From Syntrophotalea carbinolica DSM 2380 (GTDB lineage: Bacteria; Desulfobacterota; Desulfuromonadia; Desulfuromonadales; Syntrophotaleaceae): a stretch of 64,000 bases of DNA. Of the stretch, positions 22,138-53,770 are shown one piece after another (positions within the stretch are counted from its first letter, which is position 1; each line of letters starts with the position of its first letter). The notes beneath the pieces are model-generated. The model worked only from the letters and a program-made list of their open reading frames with translations. It was not told where the DNA came from and did no database searches. The stretch is taken from contig NC_007498.2 of assembly GCF_000012885.1 (NCBI RefSeq), positions 2,170,001 to 2,234,000 on the forward strand, read 5' to 3'. The translations under genes were made by a program, and so were the position numbers.

Positions 22138-23091
22138 TCAGACGATAGCATCCGAACCATCGGCCGCAGTCTGCTGCGATCGCCCGAGTTCGAGCAACTT
22201 CAGAAAGTCTTGCGGCAAAGGCGCCTCGATATTCAGTGGTTCCTTGCTGATTGGATGCAGCAATTCAAGTCGCCGGGCATGCAACATCTGACGCGGAACA
22301 TCCACCCCACGCCAGCGGTCCGGTCCCCCGTAGCGAATATCTCCAAGCAGAGGATGACCGGCTTCGGCAAAATGAACCCGAATCTGGTGGGAGCGTCCGG
22401 TGGGTATTTCGACCTCCAGCAATTCCGCGTCGCCGAATTTTTCAATGACACGGTACCGAGTCACCGCTTCCTTGCCTCCCCTGGCTACCGATTTCATAAG
22501 GTTGGTACGATGTTGACGGGCCAGAAGGGAACGAAATTCTCCTTGGGGGGCCTGCATACAACCTGCGACCAGGGCAAGATAGTGTTTTTGCACACGGCGG
22601 GCGGCAAAGATATCGGACAAGGATTTGTGCGCACGCGCATGAATGGAAAAAATCATTACGCCGGAGGTATCCCTATCGAGCCGCTGGACCATACCGAGAG
22701 ACGGTTTCCGTCCTTTGTTATAGGGATCATCGAGCAGCCTCAGCAACGCCTCGTAAAGTGTCCCTTTATACCGTGCAGGGGTCGGCTGGGAGTTAATACC
22801 GGGGGGCTTGTTTACAACAACGAGATACCTGTCGCGCAGAAGAATATGTTCATCGTCAAGGGCAAAGATATCGAGATCCCGATGATCCAGATAGACCTCG
22901 ACAGCGGCATGGCCCGGTACGGGAAAAGAACTCCTGCGCATACGCCGACCATTAAGGTGAACCCCACCCAAATCGATAATTTTACGCGCAAAAGAACGCG
23001 AAAAATCGGGAATGGCTGATGCCAGATATTGATCGAGTCGCATGCCATTGCATTCCTCAGCAACAGTGCGCCTGAAAACGCCCCCCGCCAT
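22138..23091 (-). CDS. RluA-family 23S rRNA/tRNA pseudouridine synthase
   Basis: A 317-residue protein with an N-terminal S4 RNA-binding domain (RLDQYLASAIPDFSRSFARKIIDLGGVHLNG) and an RluA catalytic domain. The catalytic Asp is in VQRLDRDTSGVMIFS; KHYLALVAG and TGRSHQIRVHFAEAGHPLLGD are the other signatures. This architecture matches RluC/RluD; which uridine is modified cannot be decided from sequence alone. AAAGG lies 6 nt upstream of the ATG. Confidence 0.92.
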   Translation of the reverse strand: MAGGVFRRTVAEECNGMRLDQYLASAIPDFSRSFARKIIDLGGVHLNGRRMRRSSFPVPGHAAVEVYLDHRDLDIFALDDEHILLRDRYLVVVNKPPGINSQPTPARYKGTLYEALLRLLDDPYNKGRKPSLGMVQRLDRDTSGVMIFSIHARAHKSLSDIFAARRVQKHYLALVAGCMQAPQGEFRSLLARQHRTNLMKSVARGGKEAVTRYRVIEKFGDAELLEVEIPTGRSHQIRVHFAEAGHPLLGDIRYGGPDRWRGVDVPRQMLHARRLELLHPISKEPLNIEAPLPQDFLKLLELGRSQQTAADGSDAIV

Positions 23092-23199
23092 GATTAACCT
23101 TTCTATGCGAATGATTGCCGGAAGTTTAGGATAGGGAGAATGCTACCACAAGCCCTTACGGTTGTCCTGGCAAAATGTCCATGCCAACTGCCGTCTTCG

Positions 23200-23227
23200 T
23201 TGACAGGGGCAGGTTTCGTGGTAGTCT
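23200..23227 (+). promoter_or_regulatory. Candidate promoter of the 6S RNA gene
   Basis: TTGACA at 23200-23205 with a poor -10 (TAGTCT, 23222-23227, 16-nt spacer). It would give a short 5' precursor extension before the mature RNA near 23250. Confidence 0.35.
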
Positions 23228-23249
23228 TTTTACCACAAGGTTATGGAAA

Positions 23250-23427
23250 GTTGTCTCTGAGATGCACGAGCACCCTGGATGAGATGACCAACATTTTGAT
23301 CGGAGCGTCTATCGCCACAGGTCATGGTGAGCCAGCCCGCCTACGAGTGGGACGCCTGAAATGACCAGCGAGGACCAGGATATTAAGCCGGTCGTATTTT
23401 CCGGGAGGTCGACATCTCGGAGACACC
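23250..23427 (+). ncRNA. ssrS: 6S RNA
   Basis: GTCTCTGAGATG (23253-23264) and CATCTCGGAGAC (23413-23424) form the closing stem and match almost exactly the terminal sequences of Escherichia coli 6S RNA (TCTCTGAGATG ... CATCTCGGAGA). A second stem, CCTGG (23274-23278) with CCAGG (23375-23379), leads to the central region. The length, about 178 nt, is the normal size. 6S RNA mimics an open promoter and sequesters the housekeeping RNA polymerase holoenzyme in slow growth. No protein gene fits the 430-nt gap between the RluA-type gene and the thioesterase. An intrinsic terminator follows at once. Confidence 0.9.
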
Positions 23428-23444
23428 CATAATCAGCGATCCGC

Positions 23445-23483
23445 AACAACAAAGCCCCGCACAGATAGCGGGGCTTTGTTGTT
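23445..23483 (+). terminator. Strong intrinsic terminator after 6S RNA
   Basis: Perfect 16-bp inverted repeat AACAACAAAGCCCCGC (23445-23460) / GCGGGGCTTTGTTGTT (23468-23483) with a 7-nt loop and T-rich 3' arm. It can also stop the converging minus-strand transcript of the thioesterase gene. Confidence 0.85.
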
Positions 23484-23521
23484 GTTATGAAATGTGACGA
23501 CGAGCACAAGCGATGACAAGT

Positions 23522-23908
23522 TCAGTCAAGGATGTGTTTTTCCAGCACGAAACAAGTAAACGTTGCCTCAAAAACCCGCTTGCCCTCGACCTCGACAGTA
23601 CAGAAAACACTGTGTTTCTTCCCTTCGCGACTTTCGAGGATGGCGTGAGCCTTCATGGTATCACCGCAGCGAACAGGGGCCAAAAATCGAACATCGGCTG
23701 CACCCAACACGACGAACGGATCGTTAACCGCAAGCATGGCCGCATAATCGGCAAGACCAAATGTAAAGCCACCGTGAACAAGACCGTGATCGTCGGCGGA
23801 CATATCGGCGAAGGTCTTGAGCTGCGCCGAAGCCTCACCATCCTTAAGCTCCACCATCTCCCCCACCAGGGTGGGCGAAATCGCTTTATGCGTCCTTGAT
23901 TGCATCAC
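23522..23908 (-). CDS. Hotdog-fold thioesterase, PaaI/YigI-like
   Basis: A 128-residue protein with the PaaI-type motif HGGFTFGLADYAAMLAVN near residues 45-62, whose Asp is the expected catalytic residue, followed by strands LGAADVRFLAPVRCGDTMKAHAI. It probably hydrolyses an acyl- or aryl-CoA thioester; substrate unknown. It is the last gene of the run beginning with the aromatic amino acid genes, though cotranscription with ihfB (40-nt gap) is not certain. Confidence 0.85.
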   Translation of the reverse strand: MMQSRTHKAISPTLVGEMVELKDGEASAQLKTFADMSADDHGLVHGGFTFGLADYAAMLAVNDPFVVLGAADVRFLAPVRCGDTMKAHAILESREGKKHSVFCTVEVEGKRVFEATFTCFVLEKHILD

Positions 23909-23947: not shown

Positions 23948-24232
23948 TTATGCGCCTTTATCGACGCGCTCGCGAAGCTGTTTGCCGGTTTTGAAAAAAG
24001 CTGTCTTTTTGGCCGGAATAGCAACAACTTCACCGCTTTTGGGATTGCGGGCTTCCCGAGCTTCACGGGTGCGTACCGTAAAGGACCCGAAACCACGGAT
24101 TTCGACCCGGTCTCCTCCGACCAGCGCATCACGTATGCCATCCAGCAGCGTATTGACCACCAGTTCGGACTCTTTTTTACTCAGGATCCCATTCAAATAG
24201 GAAAGCTCTTCAATCAACTCGCTCTTGGTCAT
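23948..24232 (-). CDS. ihfB: Integration host factor beta-type DNA-bending protein
   Basis: A 94-residue HU/IHF protein. The beta-arm contains GFGSFTVRTREAREARNPKSGE with the intercalating Pro in RNPKSG, and the C-terminus has PAKKTAFFKTGKQLRERV. The N-terminus MTKSELIEELSY and its position downstream of rpsA and sppA match IhfB (HimD) rather than HU; the paralogue distinction is by context. It organises the nucleoid and assists sigma54 promoters. Confidence 0.88.
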   Translation of the reverse strand: MTKSELIEELSYLNGILSKKESELVVNTLLDGIRDALVGGDRVEIRGFGSFTVRTREAREARNPKSGEVVAIPAKKTAFFKTGKQLRERVDKGA

Positions 24233-29949: not shown

Positions 29950-30816
29950 TTATACGATGGCATCCCGACGCTGCTTGGACCGTAGGAAAAAGTCGTATAG
30001 CGCCTCACCGTTGCCCTGACAAATATCGCGCTTGACCTCTGCCAGACTGTGCTCGAAAGTCTCGAGGACTTCCAGCAAAGCAACCCGGTTACTCAGAGCG
30101 ATATCCCGCCACATGGTCGGATCGGAAGATGCGATGCGCGTAAAATCACGGAATCCCCCGGCGGAATAGTTGAGGATATTCTCATTCTCACCACCGCAAT
30201 TGGCCACGGCATCGACCAGTGCATAAGCCACCATATGCGGCAGATGGCTGATGCCGGCAAGCACGCGGTCGTGTTTTTCCGGTGTCATCACGACCACCTC
30301 GCTGCCGGCAGCCTGCCAGAGAGATTTGATCAGCTCCAGAGCCTGGCCATCGGTACGCGAGGTCGGCGTAAGAATACAACGGCGTCCCCGATAAAGAGAG
30401 GCAAATGCAGCCGCTGCGCCGCTTTGTTCAGTACCGGCTACCGGATGTCCGGGCACAAACTGGATATCCTCGCGCAACAGAGGTTCTATCGCGCAGATGA
30501 CTTCGGCCTTGACGCTGCCGCCGTCCGTCAACACGGAACCGGGTTTCATATGCGGGATAACCTCGGCCGCTACTTTGGCCAGGGTCTGCACCGGCGTTGC
30601 CAGAAAAACCACATCCGCGCCGGCCACACCCTCGGCCAGGGAATGAGTGAACGCGTCGACCACGCCCTTTTTGAGGGCCGTTTCGAGATTGGCACGGCCA
30701 CGGCCGATACCGACAACCTCGCCGACCAGGCCGGCCTCCTTGAGGGCCAGGGCGAAGGATCCTCCGATCAACCCGACACCGACCACGGCTAATTTGGGAA
30801 TAAAAAAATCCGACAT
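29950..30816 (-). CDS. tyrA: Prephenate dehydrogenase
   Basis: A 288-residue NAD(P)-dependent enzyme for tyrosine synthesis. The Rossmann motif AVVGVGLIGGSFALALKEAG opens the protein; HPVAGTEQSGAAAA carries the catalytic His; the C-terminal helical domain has HDRVLAGISHLPHMVAYALV and AGGFRDFTRIASSDPTMWRDI. No ACT or chorismate mutase domain is fused to it. It follows pheA and precedes aroA, forming the aromatic amino acid part of the operon. Confidence 0.96.
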   Translation of the reverse strand: MSDFFIPKLAVVGVGLIGGSFALALKEAGLVGEVVGIGRGRANLETALKKGVVDAFTHSLAEGVAGADVVFLATPVQTLAKVAAEVIPHMKPGSVLTDGGSVKAEVICAIEPLLREDIQFVPGHPVAGTEQSGAAAAFASLYRGRRCILTPTSRTDGQALELIKSLWQAAGSEVVVMTPEKHDRVLAGISHLPHMVAYALVDAVANCGGENENILNYSAGGFRDFTRIASSDPTMWRDIALSNRVALLEVLETFEHSLAEVKRDICQGNGEALYDFFLRSKQRRDAIV

Positions 30817-30859
30817 GTTAGCTATCTATACCTTGATTGAAATGAACTCACATTCAGCG

Positions 30860-31948
30860 TCAACGACAGCGGGGATAGGAACCGAGCACCTTGAAAGAGC
30901 GGCAGCAAGCCTGCAGGTCTTCCAGCGCCTCAGCGACGGCGGCATCTTCAACATGCCCTTCCAGATCGAGGAAAAAGATATACTCCCACGCCTTGGTTTT
31001 AATGGGGCGGCTTTCGATTTTGGAAAGATTGATACCGCGTTTATTGAAAGGCCCAAGCATCCGGCAAAGGACTCCGGGCTCATCCGCGACAATGAACAGT
31101 ACCGAGGTTTTATCATGTCCGGTAGGAGACGTAAGCTGCCGCCCTACGACAAGGAAGCGCGTGAGGTTGTTGGTGTTGTCCTGAATCTTGGGCTTGACGA
31201 TGCGCAATCCGTAAAGGGAAGCCGCAATTTCGCTGGCGATGGCGGCAACGCTGGAATCCTCCGCCGCCTGGCGTGCCGCCATAGCGGTACTCGATGCATC
31301 GACCAACGGTACATCTGGCAGATTTTCCTCCAGCCAATGACGGCATTGCGCCAAAGCCTGGGGATGCGACAGCACCTTTTCGATATCTTCCATCTTTCCG
31401 GAAAGAGAAAGCAGATCGTGGGAAATCTCCAGAAGAATCTCCGCATTGATTTTAAGATCGGACTCGACAAACATATCGAGGGTATGGGACACAATGCCCT
31501 CGGTGGTATTTTCGACCGGGACCACGCCGTAGTCGGCGCGCCCGCGACGCACCTCTTCGAATACTGCCGGGATACTTTTCTGCGCCACCAGCTGTGCAGA
31601 AAAACCGAACTGTTTTTGAGCCGCCTGATGGGTGAATGTTGCCGAGGGCCCGAAAAAGGCCACCTTCATGGGCTGCTCAAGGGACAGCGACGCGGAAATA
31701 ATCTCCCTGTACACACGGCGGATAGCTTCAGACGGGAACGGGCCGCTATTCCGGGCGATAAGACGCTCGAATACAGCCAGTTCGCGGCCGGGGTTATAGA
31801 ATTCCAGCCCCTGCCCGGCCTTGGCGTGGCCGATGTCCTGGGCGACACGCGCCCTTTCATTGAGCAGATCCAAAATCTCGTCATCGATGGTATCGATTTT
31901 GTGACGCAATTTCGACAAAACTTCCAGATCTTTTTTTTCCATGGTCAC
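30860..31948 (-). CDS. pheA: Bifunctional chorismate mutase/prephenate dehydratase (P-protein)
   Basis: A 362-residue enzyme for phenylalanine synthesis. Residues 1-90 are an AroQ chorismate mutase (LSKLRHKIDTIDDEILDLLNERARVAQDIGHAK). Prephenate dehydratase follows (VAFFGPSATFTHQAA, then VPVENTTEGIVSHTLDM, and NNLTRFLVVG with the catalytic Thr-Arg-Phe). A C-terminal ACT domain with the ESRPIKTKAWEYIFFLDLEGH motif probably senses phenylalanine. It is the first gene of the pheA-tyrA-aroA-cmk-ispH-rpsA run. A weak promoter (TTGCTT, 17 nt, TAATCT near 32002-31974) is possible. Confidence 0.96.
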   Translation of the reverse strand: MTMEKKDLEVLSKLRHKIDTIDDEILDLLNERARVAQDIGHAKAGQGLEFYNPGRELAVFERLIARNSGPFPSEAIRRVYREIISASLSLEQPMKVAFFGPSATFTHQAAQKQFGFSAQLVAQKSIPAVFEEVRRGRADYGVVPVENTTEGIVSHTLDMFVESDLKINAEILLEISHDLLSLSGKMEDIEKVLSHPQALAQCRHWLEENLPDVPLVDASSTAMAARQAAEDSSVAAIASEIAASLYGLRIVKPKIQDNTNNLTRFLVVGRQLTSPTGHDKTSVLFIVADEPGVLCRMLGPFNKRGINLSKIESRPIKTKAWEYIFFLDLEGHVEDAAVAEALEDLQACCRSFKVLGSYPRCR

Positions 31949-51790: not shown

Positions 51791-53332
51791 TTAAAAATGG
51801 GCCGACGGGCGGGCCTTTACGATCAATGCCAAACGGTTAAGGGCATTGATGTACGCCTTGGCGCTGGCCACGATGATATCGGGATGTGCGCCCTGACCCA
51901 GAACTTCGCGGCCGTCAAGCTCCAAACGGACCGTACATTCACCTTGTGCGTCAGTTCCCCCGGTTATAGCCCCCACGGTAAAACTGAGCAGATCGGCCTT
52001 GCTGTCGGTCAGCTTTTTGATGGTTTTGAAGGTGGCGTCTACAGGACCGCCGCCCATCATAGCCGCCTTTTTGATTTCGCCGTCAATCTCCATGGCCACC
52101 GTAGCGATCGGGGCGGCAAACGAACCGGAACTGGTAACCATCTGCACCAGCTTGTACTTTTCAGGGATACGAATAATTTCGTCGGCCACAATGGCGTCGA
52201 GATCTTCGTCGAAAATTTCTTTTTTCTGATCGGCAAGTGCCTTGAAACGGGTAAAGGCCCGATCCAGATCTTCCTTGGAAAGATCGTATCCCAACTCAAC
52301 CAGACGCTGTCCGAAAGCGTGACGCCCGGAATGCTTGCCCAGGACCAGCTTGTTCTGGGTCAGGCCGATCGATTCGGGGGTCATGATTTCGTAGGTCGAC
52401 TTATCCATCAAAACGCCGTGCTGGTGAATCCCGGCTTCGTGGGCGAAGGCATTGGCACCGACGATGGCCTTATTGGGCTGCACCTGAATGCCGGTAATGG
52501 TCGATAACAGCTTGCTGCTGGCATAAAGATGCTCGGTCACGATATCGGTCTTGAACGGCAGGATATCGGCCCGGGTGCGCAGGGCCATAACGACTTCCTC
52601 CAACGAGCAGTTTCCGGCCCGTTCGCCGATCCCGTTGATGGTGCACTCGATCTGTTCGGCACCGGCTTCGACAGCGGCCAGCGAATTGGCCACGGCCAGC
52701 CCCAGGTCGTTATGGCAGTGAACCGACAGAATGGCTTTGTCCACATTCGGTACGTTGTTTTTGAGACCGCGAATCAGGGCCGCGAATTCGGAGGGGATAC
52801 TGTACCCGACCGTATCGGGGATATTCACCACTTTGGCACCGGCGGCGATAACCGCTTCGACCACCCGGGCCAGAAATTCCGGACGGGTGCGGGCGGCATC
52901 CTCGCAGCTGAATTCGATATTTTCCGTGTAGCGGCCGGCATGTTTGATGGCGGCTACGGCGGTTTCGACAACCTGGTCCTCGCTCATTTTCAGCTTATAC
53001 TTCATATGGATATCGCTGGTAGCCAGGAAGGTATGAATACGCCCGCGTTCCCCCGCATATTGGAGGGCCTCCCATGCACAGTCGATGTCCTTGACCGCCG
53101 CGCGGCAAAGGCCAGCGATCTGCGGCCCTTTGATGGTCTCGGCGATCCGCTTGACGGCCGCGAAATCCCCTTCCGAGGCAATGGGAAAGCCTGCCTCGAT
53201 AACATCGACATTCAGCTTTGCAAGCTGGGAAGCTATCCGCAGTTTTTCATCGATATTCATGCTGGCGCCGGGCGATTGTTCGCCATCGCGCAAGGTGGTG
53301 TCGAAAATTTTGATACTTTTGACGTTCTCCAT
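51791..53332 (-). CDS. leuA: 2-isopropylmalate synthase
   Basis: A 513-residue HMGL-like TIM-barrel enzyme that condenses 2-oxoisovalerate with acetyl-CoA, the first step of leucine synthesis. IFDTTLRDGEQSPGASM and LSVHCHNDLGLAVANSLAAVEAGAEQIECTINGIGERAGN are the synthase signatures with metal-binding His residues; the C-terminal regulatory (LeuA allosteric) domain follows. The ATG at 53330-53332 (MENVKS) was chosen. Expression is under a leucine T-box. Citramalate synthase is a close relative, but the T-box specifier and leu neighbours favour LeuA. Confidence 0.95.
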   Translation of the reverse strand: MENVKSIKIFDTTLRDGEQSPGASMNIDEKLRIASQLAKLNVDVIEAGFPIASEGDFAAVKRIAETIKGPQIAGLCRAAVKDIDCAWEALQYAGERGRIHTFLATSDIHMKYKLKMSEDQVVETAVAAIKHAGRYTENIEFSCEDAARTRPEFLARVVEAVIAAGAKVVNIPDTVGYSIPSEFAALIRGLKNNVPNVDKAILSVHCHNDLGLAVANSLAAVEAGAEQIECTINGIGERAGNCSLEEVVMALRTRADILPFKTDIVTEHLYASSKLLSTITGIQVQPNKAIVGANAFAHEAGIHQHGVLMDKSTYEIMTPESIGLTQNKLVLGKHSGRHAFGQRLVELGYDLSKEDLDRAFTRFKALADQKKEIFDEDLDAIVADEIIRIPEKYKLVQMVTSSGSFAAPIATVAMEIDGEIKKAAMMGGGPVDATFKTIKKLTDSKADLLSFTVGAITGGTDAQGECTVRLELDGREVLGQGAHPDIIVASAKAYINALNRLALIVKARPSAHF

Positions 53333-53361
53333 GTGACCTCCGTCAGTCGTGACTCCCCACT

Positions 53362-53463
53362 TCACCAAGAGCCGGGAGCAGTCGTTGTTGTGAATGATTT
53401 ACGGACGATTTCAGGTACTTCATCATGCGGATGAAGCATCAGGTCGCTTAGGTCCGATTCCAC
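53362..53463 (-). CDS. Possible 33-residue leader ORF before leuA
   Basis: A GTG-initiated frame (VESDLSDLMLHPHDEVPEIVRKS...) with GGGGGTGG about 6 nt upstream, between the T-box terminator and leuA. It ends 29 nt before the leuA start. It is not leucine-rich, and no homologue is recognised. It may be a real small protein or chance; confidence is low. Confidence 0.25.
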   Translation of the reverse strand: MESDLSDLMLHPHDEVPEIVRKSFTTTTAPGSW

Positions 53464-53520: not shown

Positions 53521-53770
53521 CAAAAAAGCTCCCTCCCTTCCAGGGGCGAGAGCTTTGCTTCGCGGTACCACCCTGATTCAGTTCCAGCAGGAACCCTTCA
53601 TTGCCCTTAACGCAGGATCACGTCACGACCTAGCCGATTTCAACCGGATCAACCGTGCGACTCCGAGGCGAGTTCAGTCCGCTCGATACCGGCTCGCAGC
53701 GACCGCCGGCTCTCTCCTATCGAGGTAAAGACCTAATACTCCTCTTCAACGTCTTTATTTTTCTTTCGTT
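53521..53770 (-). promoter_or_regulatory. T-box riboswitch (leucine) controlling leuA
   Basis: The conserved T-box AGGGTGGTACCGCG is at 53574-53561 on the minus strand; its TGG half should pair with the tRNA acceptor end. The Stem I region includes a GAGGAGTA-type bulge and the specifier CTC (53672-53670, preceded by GAA), a leucine codon. A terminator hairpin (about 53556-53527, AAAGCTC...GAGCTTTTTT) lies after the T-box. Uncharged tRNA-Leu should favour the antiterminator and switch on leuA. The riboswitch class is certain; the exact pairing was drawn by eye. Confidence 0.92.

Follow-up and report, generated by a model that had tools for sequence, protein, structure and literature searches.

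The window analysed here, a 64,000-nt stretch of the Syntrophotalea carbinolica DSM 2380 genome, carries a predicted 6S RNA gene. On one side lies a divergent RluA-family gene, on the other a 4HBT/hotdog thioesterase-type gene in convergent orientation (Table 1). These were the neighbours that an earlier, sequence-only reading of this DNA had given. No NCBIfam model scored above its cut-off on the thioesterase-type gene. The ihfB-like gene beyond it reached 116.1 with one NCBIfam IHF-beta model (cut-off 115) and stayed below the cut-off of a second.

Table 1. Features of the 6S locus in the window and the two further 6S-type copies in the genome (C1 coordinates)
Feature	Position	Strand	Basis
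RluA-family pseudouridine synthase gene, divergent neighbour	22138..23091	-	Neighbour in 41 of 42 type B rows
Predicted -35 element TTGACA	23200..23205	+	TTGAC-N15..19-TANNNT conserved upstream of type B
Predicted extended -10 element TGGTAGTCT	23219..23227	+	TAGTCT at 23222, preceded by TG
6S RNA, type B, predicted mature RNA of 177 nt	23251..23427	+	RF00013 alignment, R1, covariation
Terminal stem, 5' arm TCTCTGAGATG	23254..23264	+	Same as E. coli ssrS; helix 1 paired in 98.1% of A1 cells
GACCAAC, conserved 5' strand at edge of central bubble, predicted pRNA template	23286..23292	+	Type B motif
Best-conserved apical arm GGTGAGCCAGCCC...GTGGGACGCCT	23326..23357	+	Alignment A1
Terminal stem, 3' arm CATCTCGGAGA	23413..23423	+	Same as E. 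coli ssrS; A1 pairing
18-pair hairpin, predicted terminator common with the convergent thioesterase gene	23443..23485	.	Fold
4HBT/hotdog thioesterase-type gene, convergent neighbour	23522..23908	-	Pfam 4HBT above cut-off; neighbour in 16 of 42 type B rows
ihfB-like gene (integration host factor beta)	23948..24232	-	NCBIfam IHF-beta model; neighbour in 40 of 42 type B rows
Canonical 6S RNA, type A, 87.7 bits	C1:1265585-1265767	-	RF00013
Third 6S-type copy, 40.9 bits, below cut-off	C1:1717478-1717658	+	RF00013

Among the listed open reading frames (50 aa or longer), the two overlapping the RNA (23140-23364 on the + strand and 23309-23509 on the - strand) had no Pfam match. Protein-coding reading frames at this locus were therefore rejected, in line with the earlier remark that the region has only spurious ones.

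The segment 23250-23427 folded at -70 kcal/mol, compared with a mean of -54.8 (s.d. 4.4) for shuffled sequences (z -3.44), and one of 200 shuffles was equally stable. The architecture of 6S RNA, a rod of about 180-200 nt with a closing stem, a large central bubble and an apical arm, was found here in 177 nt and with covariation. The earlier reading had noted an inner stem and a normal length; the best span was one base shorter than the one it gave. Both arms of the terminal stem, described earlier as almost identical to those of E. coli 6S RNA, were identical to the fetched E. coli K-12 ssrS.

The covariation was assessed on an alignment of 16 relatives' sequences (A1), which was made with MAFFT without structure. 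Four of the 16 (G001, G005, G012 and G013) lie outside the set of 113 rows described below. Of the cells of the 41 pairs, 93.9% were paired, and this fell to 31.5-45.6% when the partners were slid by 1 to 3 columns. Both-sided changes occurred in 22 of the 41 pairs; the shuffled mean was 11.9, and none of 500 shuffles reached 22. Within the rod, conservation was strongest in the helix GACC/GGTC at the border of the central bubble and in the apical arm GGTGAGCCAGCCC/GTGGGACGCCT. In a BLAST search, this arm (23326-23357) was the only stretch common to many more distant relatives.

The sequence-only reading had named a covariance search with the Rfam 6S model as its check, and a score below the threshold as grounds for giving it up. 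The score did fall short. RF00013 gave 39.9 bits on the window copy, 6.5 bits below the gathering score of 46.4 bits, with an end-to-end alignment (model positions 1-187 of 187) and an E-value of 1.1e-6 in 511 bases. A standard RNA scan therefore misses this copy, and the RF00013 search of the genome did not list it. The 20 other Rfam matches in 23050-23560 were all below their gathering scores, mostly lay on the terminator hairpin, and were rejected.

At Rfam gathering thresholds, the only match in the whole window was a T-box leader (53539-53758, - strand; 115.4 bits, gathering score 93). It lies upstream of a 525-aa reading frame (51791-53368, - strand) that presumably resembles 2-isopropylmalate synthase.

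At a loose threshold, RF00013 also matched 8 of 14 control genomes, one archaeon included, and was over the cut-off in 4 of them, so that weak RF00013 matches alone prove little. Among the matches listed, 27 of the 42 copies at the same gene position were over the cut-off, 12 were under it (the window copy included), and three (G006, G020 and G057) had no listed score. Two copies of the same genus reached 55.2 (G002) and 56.5 bits (G004); under the cut-off were the window copy, that of G003 (45.0 bits) and others down to 27.5 bits. With 27 of 42 syntenic copies over the cut-off, the shortfall belongs to the window copy's own fit to the model. In our reading, this particular copy matches the model poorly, and its putative subtype as a whole mostly passes.

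Searches with RF00013 and with R1, a covariance model built from A1, gave three 6S-type RNAs in the S. carbinolica genome: the window copy and the two listed at the foot of Table 1. R1 matched all three, at 159.2 bits for the window copy and at 57.6 and 40.5 bits for the others. The window copy is among the training sequences, and its 159.2 bits is thus not an independent score.

Multiple copies were common in the order. Among 88 genomes that were at least 90% complete, R1 matched at least 87, RF00013 matched at least 87, and at least 85 were over the RF00013 cut-off. Among the R1 matches listed, some of which are fragments, 71 of the 88 genomes had at least two, 16 had one and one (G043) had none; the most in one genome was five (G094). 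One locus of that genome (L134) held two 6S-like RNAs in tandem (G094:C15:30331-30478 and 30757-30933), about 280 nt apart.

For the comparison of subtypes, 113 rows from 64 genomes were used for the tree and for the synteny, motif, promoter and boxA counts. They were not a random sample but had been picked for their score and availability. A row was labelled A if its RF00013 score exceeded both its R1 score and 60, an unlisted RF00013 score being entered as 0. Of the rest, those whose retrieved flank contained RluA or IhfB were labelled B, and the other 22 rows, a mixed group, C.

The 49 type A rows were set apart in the tree (support 100/100, branch 1.37), in which 43 of the 110 inner branches were open and the bootstrap had not settled. 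Type B comprised 42 rows from 42 of the 64 genomes, which represent 12 of the 18 families among the 88 genomes searched with R1. An A row and a B row were both present in 28 of the 64. All five other genomes of the genus carried the window's 6S copy, as judged by BLAST. In named genomes the type B pattern was found in nine stretches, all from drafts (Desulfuromonadales, Desulfuromonadaceae, Pelobacter sp. and Geoalkalibacter sp.).

Type B lies between ihfB, with or without the thioesterase gene, and rluA. RluA was a neighbour in 41 of the 42 rows, IhfB in 40 and both in 39, counts that partly follow from the definition of the type by RluA or IhfB in the flank. The neighbour counted as IhfB was first labelled HU, and is IHF beta by one NCBIfam model. 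SppA (39 rows), Lgt (36), RpsA (17) and the thioesterase (16) were further neighbours. None of these six was found beside the 49 type A or the 22 other rows.

Behind the type A gene, the longest reading frame looked alike by eye in 9 of 10 genomes (L001 and nine others were viewed). It encodes a protein containing GTAHIS, which we take to be TraB-like. At the type A locus of G004, the longest reading frame was on the other strand.

In the 42 type B rows, 89.5% of cells were paired, and both-sided changes occurred in 26 of 41 pairs (shuffled 20.3; reached in 0 of 500 shuffles). They affected 249 cells, compared with 83.6 in the shuffles. This alignment was fitted to the model, and hence leans towards its structure.

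The two types also differed upstream. The pattern TTGAC-N15..19-TANNNT preceded 37 of 42 type B rows, none of the 49 type A rows and one of the 22 others. The pattern TTG-N19..22-TATANT preceded 46 of 49 type A rows, none of the 42 type B rows and one of the 22 others. For both patterns the shuffled means were at most 0.72 rows; these shuffles, like those for the boxA-like motif below, kept single-base composition only. At the window copy, the usual spacing would place the transcription start near 23234, and the 5' end of the transcript would then be trimmed.

Downstream of the RNA, 23443-23460 and 23468-23485 form the 18 pairs of a hairpin with a T-rich 3' arm (TTTGTTGTTGT), and the segment 23440-23495 folded at -33.6 kcal/mol. 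The 3' end of the transcript would lie at this hairpin. A simple consensus scan of 22900-23700 listed neither a promoter nor a terminator. The putative promoter and terminator of this gene come from comparison (the element conserved in 37 of 42 rows) and from the fold. The strong terminator claimed earlier would correspond to this hairpin.

We interpreted the window copy as a 6S gene belonging to a second subtype, type B, which occurs widely across the order. We put the probability of this reading, including the mechanism proposed below, at about 0.93. It is based on sequence comparison: a covarying rod of about 177 nt aligned over its full length to the 6S model, compensatory changes, a conserved promoter-like element, a downstream hairpin, a fixed gene position, orthologues above the Rfam cut-off and two further copies in the genome. 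The original assignment to 6S RNA is supported by the full-length alignment, the architecture, the compensatory changes, the conserved promoter-like element and the orthologues above the cut-off.

Alternatively, the locus could be a 6S pseudogene, left over from a duplication and now decayed, whose RNA is no longer made or used since the canonical copy does the work. The window copy does lie below the gathering cut-off while the canonical copy reaches 87.7 bits. Against decay, the gene position has been kept in 42 genomes from 12 of 18 families with compensatory changes, the terminal stem is unbroken, and the promoter element and the hairpin are present. We consider this explanation very unlikely and rejected it on the synteny, the covariation, the promoter element and the hairpin.

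A motif at the edge of the central bubble, [TC]G[AG]CCAAC (YGRCCAAC), was found in the first 75 nt of all 42 type B rows, and in none of the 49 type A and 22 other rows. A CGGAAT-like pattern occurred in 48 of 49 type A rows, one of 42 type B rows and none of the 22 others. In the window RNA, GACCAAC ends with a C at nt 42 (23292). Comparison with B. subtilis and E. coli would place the start of the pRNA opposite this C42. In the excerpts available of the published work, the pRNA of B. subtilis 6S-1 starts at nt 40 (PMC8876501), and the E. coli pRNA (PMC12005410) ends at nt 44 when aligned with the ssrS sequence.

The predicted pRNA of the window copy is 5'-GUUGGUCAUCUC. It would be G-initiated, running 5'-GUUGGUCAUC from C42, and it resembles the pRNA of B. 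subtilis 6S-1 as printed in the available part of PMC12005410, 5'-GUUCGGUCAAAACUA. According to the same excerpt, synthesis of the latter depends above all on the initiating GTP. The type A copy of the S. carbinolica genome would start its pRNA at its nt 44 with 5'-AUUCCGCUGGGG.

Published accounts of 6S RNA in E. coli and B. subtilis (PMC12005410, PMC8876501 and PMC4211561, each in excerpt) include open-promoter mimicry and release by pRNA synthesis. By analogy, the window RNA would imitate open promoter DNA, and would by this means bind the sigma-70 holoenzyme and withhold the polymerase from sigma-70 promoters. With rising NTP levels, the bound polymerase would start a short pRNA opposite C42. 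This pRNA would invade the GACC/GGTC helix and so release the 6S RNA.

Their different promoters and template strands make it probable that conditions for synthesis or release are not the same for types A and B. The predicted starts, if correct, would have B begin with GTP and A with ATP, and on this basis one may speculate that type B is responsive to GTP and type A to ATP.

The difference from type A also bears on another interpretation, in which the RNA does not mimic an open sigma-70 promoter. It would then be a 6S-like RNA with another form of polymerase as its partner, such as the core enzyme, as for Ms1 RNA, or a holoenzyme containing a different sigma factor. Its central bubble and template strand are unlike those of the type A copy in this genome, and core polymerase is known to be bound by RNAs of similar shape, as the excerpt of PMC9130861 describes. 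On the other hand, the predicted start at nt 42 falls between nt 40 (B. subtilis 6S-1) and nt 44 (E. coli), the terminal stem is that of E. coli, and 27 of 42 orthologues, among the matches listed, pass the Rfam 6S cut-off. This makes the interpretation even less probable than decay.

A chance inverted repeat, for which the intergenic position, the lack of a coding signal and the empty generic scans might speak, is hardly credible and was rejected on the fold (z -3.44), the RF00013 E-value (1.1e-6) and covariation beyond 500 shuffles, with the synteny also against it.

Returning to the type B gene, we found further elements around it in relatives. A motif TCTTTGA or TCTTTAA, which we take to be boxA-like with a role in antitermination, stood just before 6S in 21 of 42 type B rows, 11 of 22 other rows and none of the 49 type A rows (shuffled means 0.41, 0.18 and 0.60, respectively). 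It sits between the promoter element and 6S, for example in L032, L033, L110, L133 and L099. A literature search on 6S with boxA and antitermination found nothing.

Some relatives also had a second RNA domain, designated X, between 6S and the terminator. X was noticed in printed flanks, and the models R2 and R3 were built from loci that drew attention. R2 was made from nine members of the order, with 12 modelled pairs, and matched 11 of 88 genomes of the order, nine of them training genomes. X was better conserved in other families of the class than in the order. In these sister families it spans about 170-195 nt directly behind 6S (L151, L152, L155, L156, L157, L159, L161, L162, L164 and L165). 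An alignment of ten sequences from nine genomes (A6) gave 37 pairs, 20 of them with both-sided changes (shuffled 11.1; 0 of 500 shuffles reached this), for a structure derived from A6 itself.

R3 matched 43 of 117 genomes of the class, its nine training genomes included, and 6 of 247 of the phylum. Among the matches listed, it began 8 nt past the last 6S base in G103 and G098. The type C loci of G031, G092 and G050 had a weak R3 match right behind 6S. Joint alignments of the X of the order and that of the sister families, which may be one family, were weak (A4 and A7). In scans of 12, 9 and 7 X loci, with three places included twice, no Rfam family reached its gathering score over X. Weak leader-type Rfam matches (at most 34 bits, against 49-55) fell on the terminators, some reaching into the 3' part of X.

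In two phylum genomes of other classes, an R3 match lay directly before a tRNA-Sec gene (L189:1501-1804, 53.0 bits, and L190:1392-1681, 48.3 bits), with no R1 match beside either. In a third phylum genome, a weak R1 match (19.4 bits) lay just upstream of the R3 match.

The window's 6S locus had neither the boxA-like motif nor domain X. The latter was rejected for the window, as R2 matches in the genome were at chance level (best E 3.0) and R3 had none in the window. Elsewhere in the genome there was a diverged R3 match at C1:3203658-3203819 (L177:1501-1662; 37.2 bits, E 3.4e-7), with no R1 match beside it, and R3 had no match in six further genomes of the window's family.

A tentative scheme, to which we give slightly less than an even chance, is that the type B and C 6S RNAs of the class ancestrally belonged to a dual-domain noncoding transcript. 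It would have consisted of a promoter, a boxA-like antitermination site, 6S, X (about 105-195 nt, with a long closing stem) and a terminator. In this scheme X, an undescribed structured domain, would form a new RNA family with links to 6S and RNA polymerase, or else to how the 6S transcript is processed. In the window's family only the type B 6S would be left at this locus, with a diverged X elsewhere in the genome, at the C1 site given above.

The window copy resembles E. coli ssrS (RF00013) in its length, its rod with a central bubble and its full-length covariance match. The terminal stem is identical over 11 positions on both arms, and 105 of 160 aligned positions are identical. It differs in its context (rluA/thioesterase/ihfB instead of zapA-ssrS-fau), its sub-gathering score, its predicted pRNA, and in not being the sole 6S of its genome.

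6S paralogues are already known elsewhere, and the window copy adds another. As with B. subtilis 6S-1 and 6S-2, there is more than one 6S RNA in the genome, and the predicted pRNA, with its initial G, is close to the 6S-1 pRNA (PMC12005410, excerpt). The phylum is another one, and there was no sign that the duplications are related. Differential expression of 6S-1 and 6S-2 was measured, according to the available part of PMC11077062, whereas the window 6S is known from its sequence. The L. pneumophila ssrS/6S2 pair likewise includes an overlooked second 6S beside ssrS in a Gram-negative genome (PMC3048289, excerpt). Expression of 6S2 was measured there; the window type recurs at one gene position in 12 of 18 families.

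Within the wider group, Geobacter sulfurreducens has an annotated 6S RNA, GSUR0059, in the excerpt of PMC10599522. A literature search on 6S with Geobacter, Desulfuromonas and Pelobacter, covering titles and the beginnings of abstracts outside the surveys Wehner 2014 and Barrick 2005, found no paper on paired subtypes in this order.

The window copy adds a 6S gene that threshold-based annotation would miss. Within the order, genomes have 6S subtypes that differ in promoter element, gene position and predicted pRNA. This makes it possible to test whether paralogous 6S RNAs share out their tasks according to the initiating nucleotide (GTP or ATP) or the growth phase. Any deletion of 'the' 6S gene in these bacteria must reckon with two or three genes.
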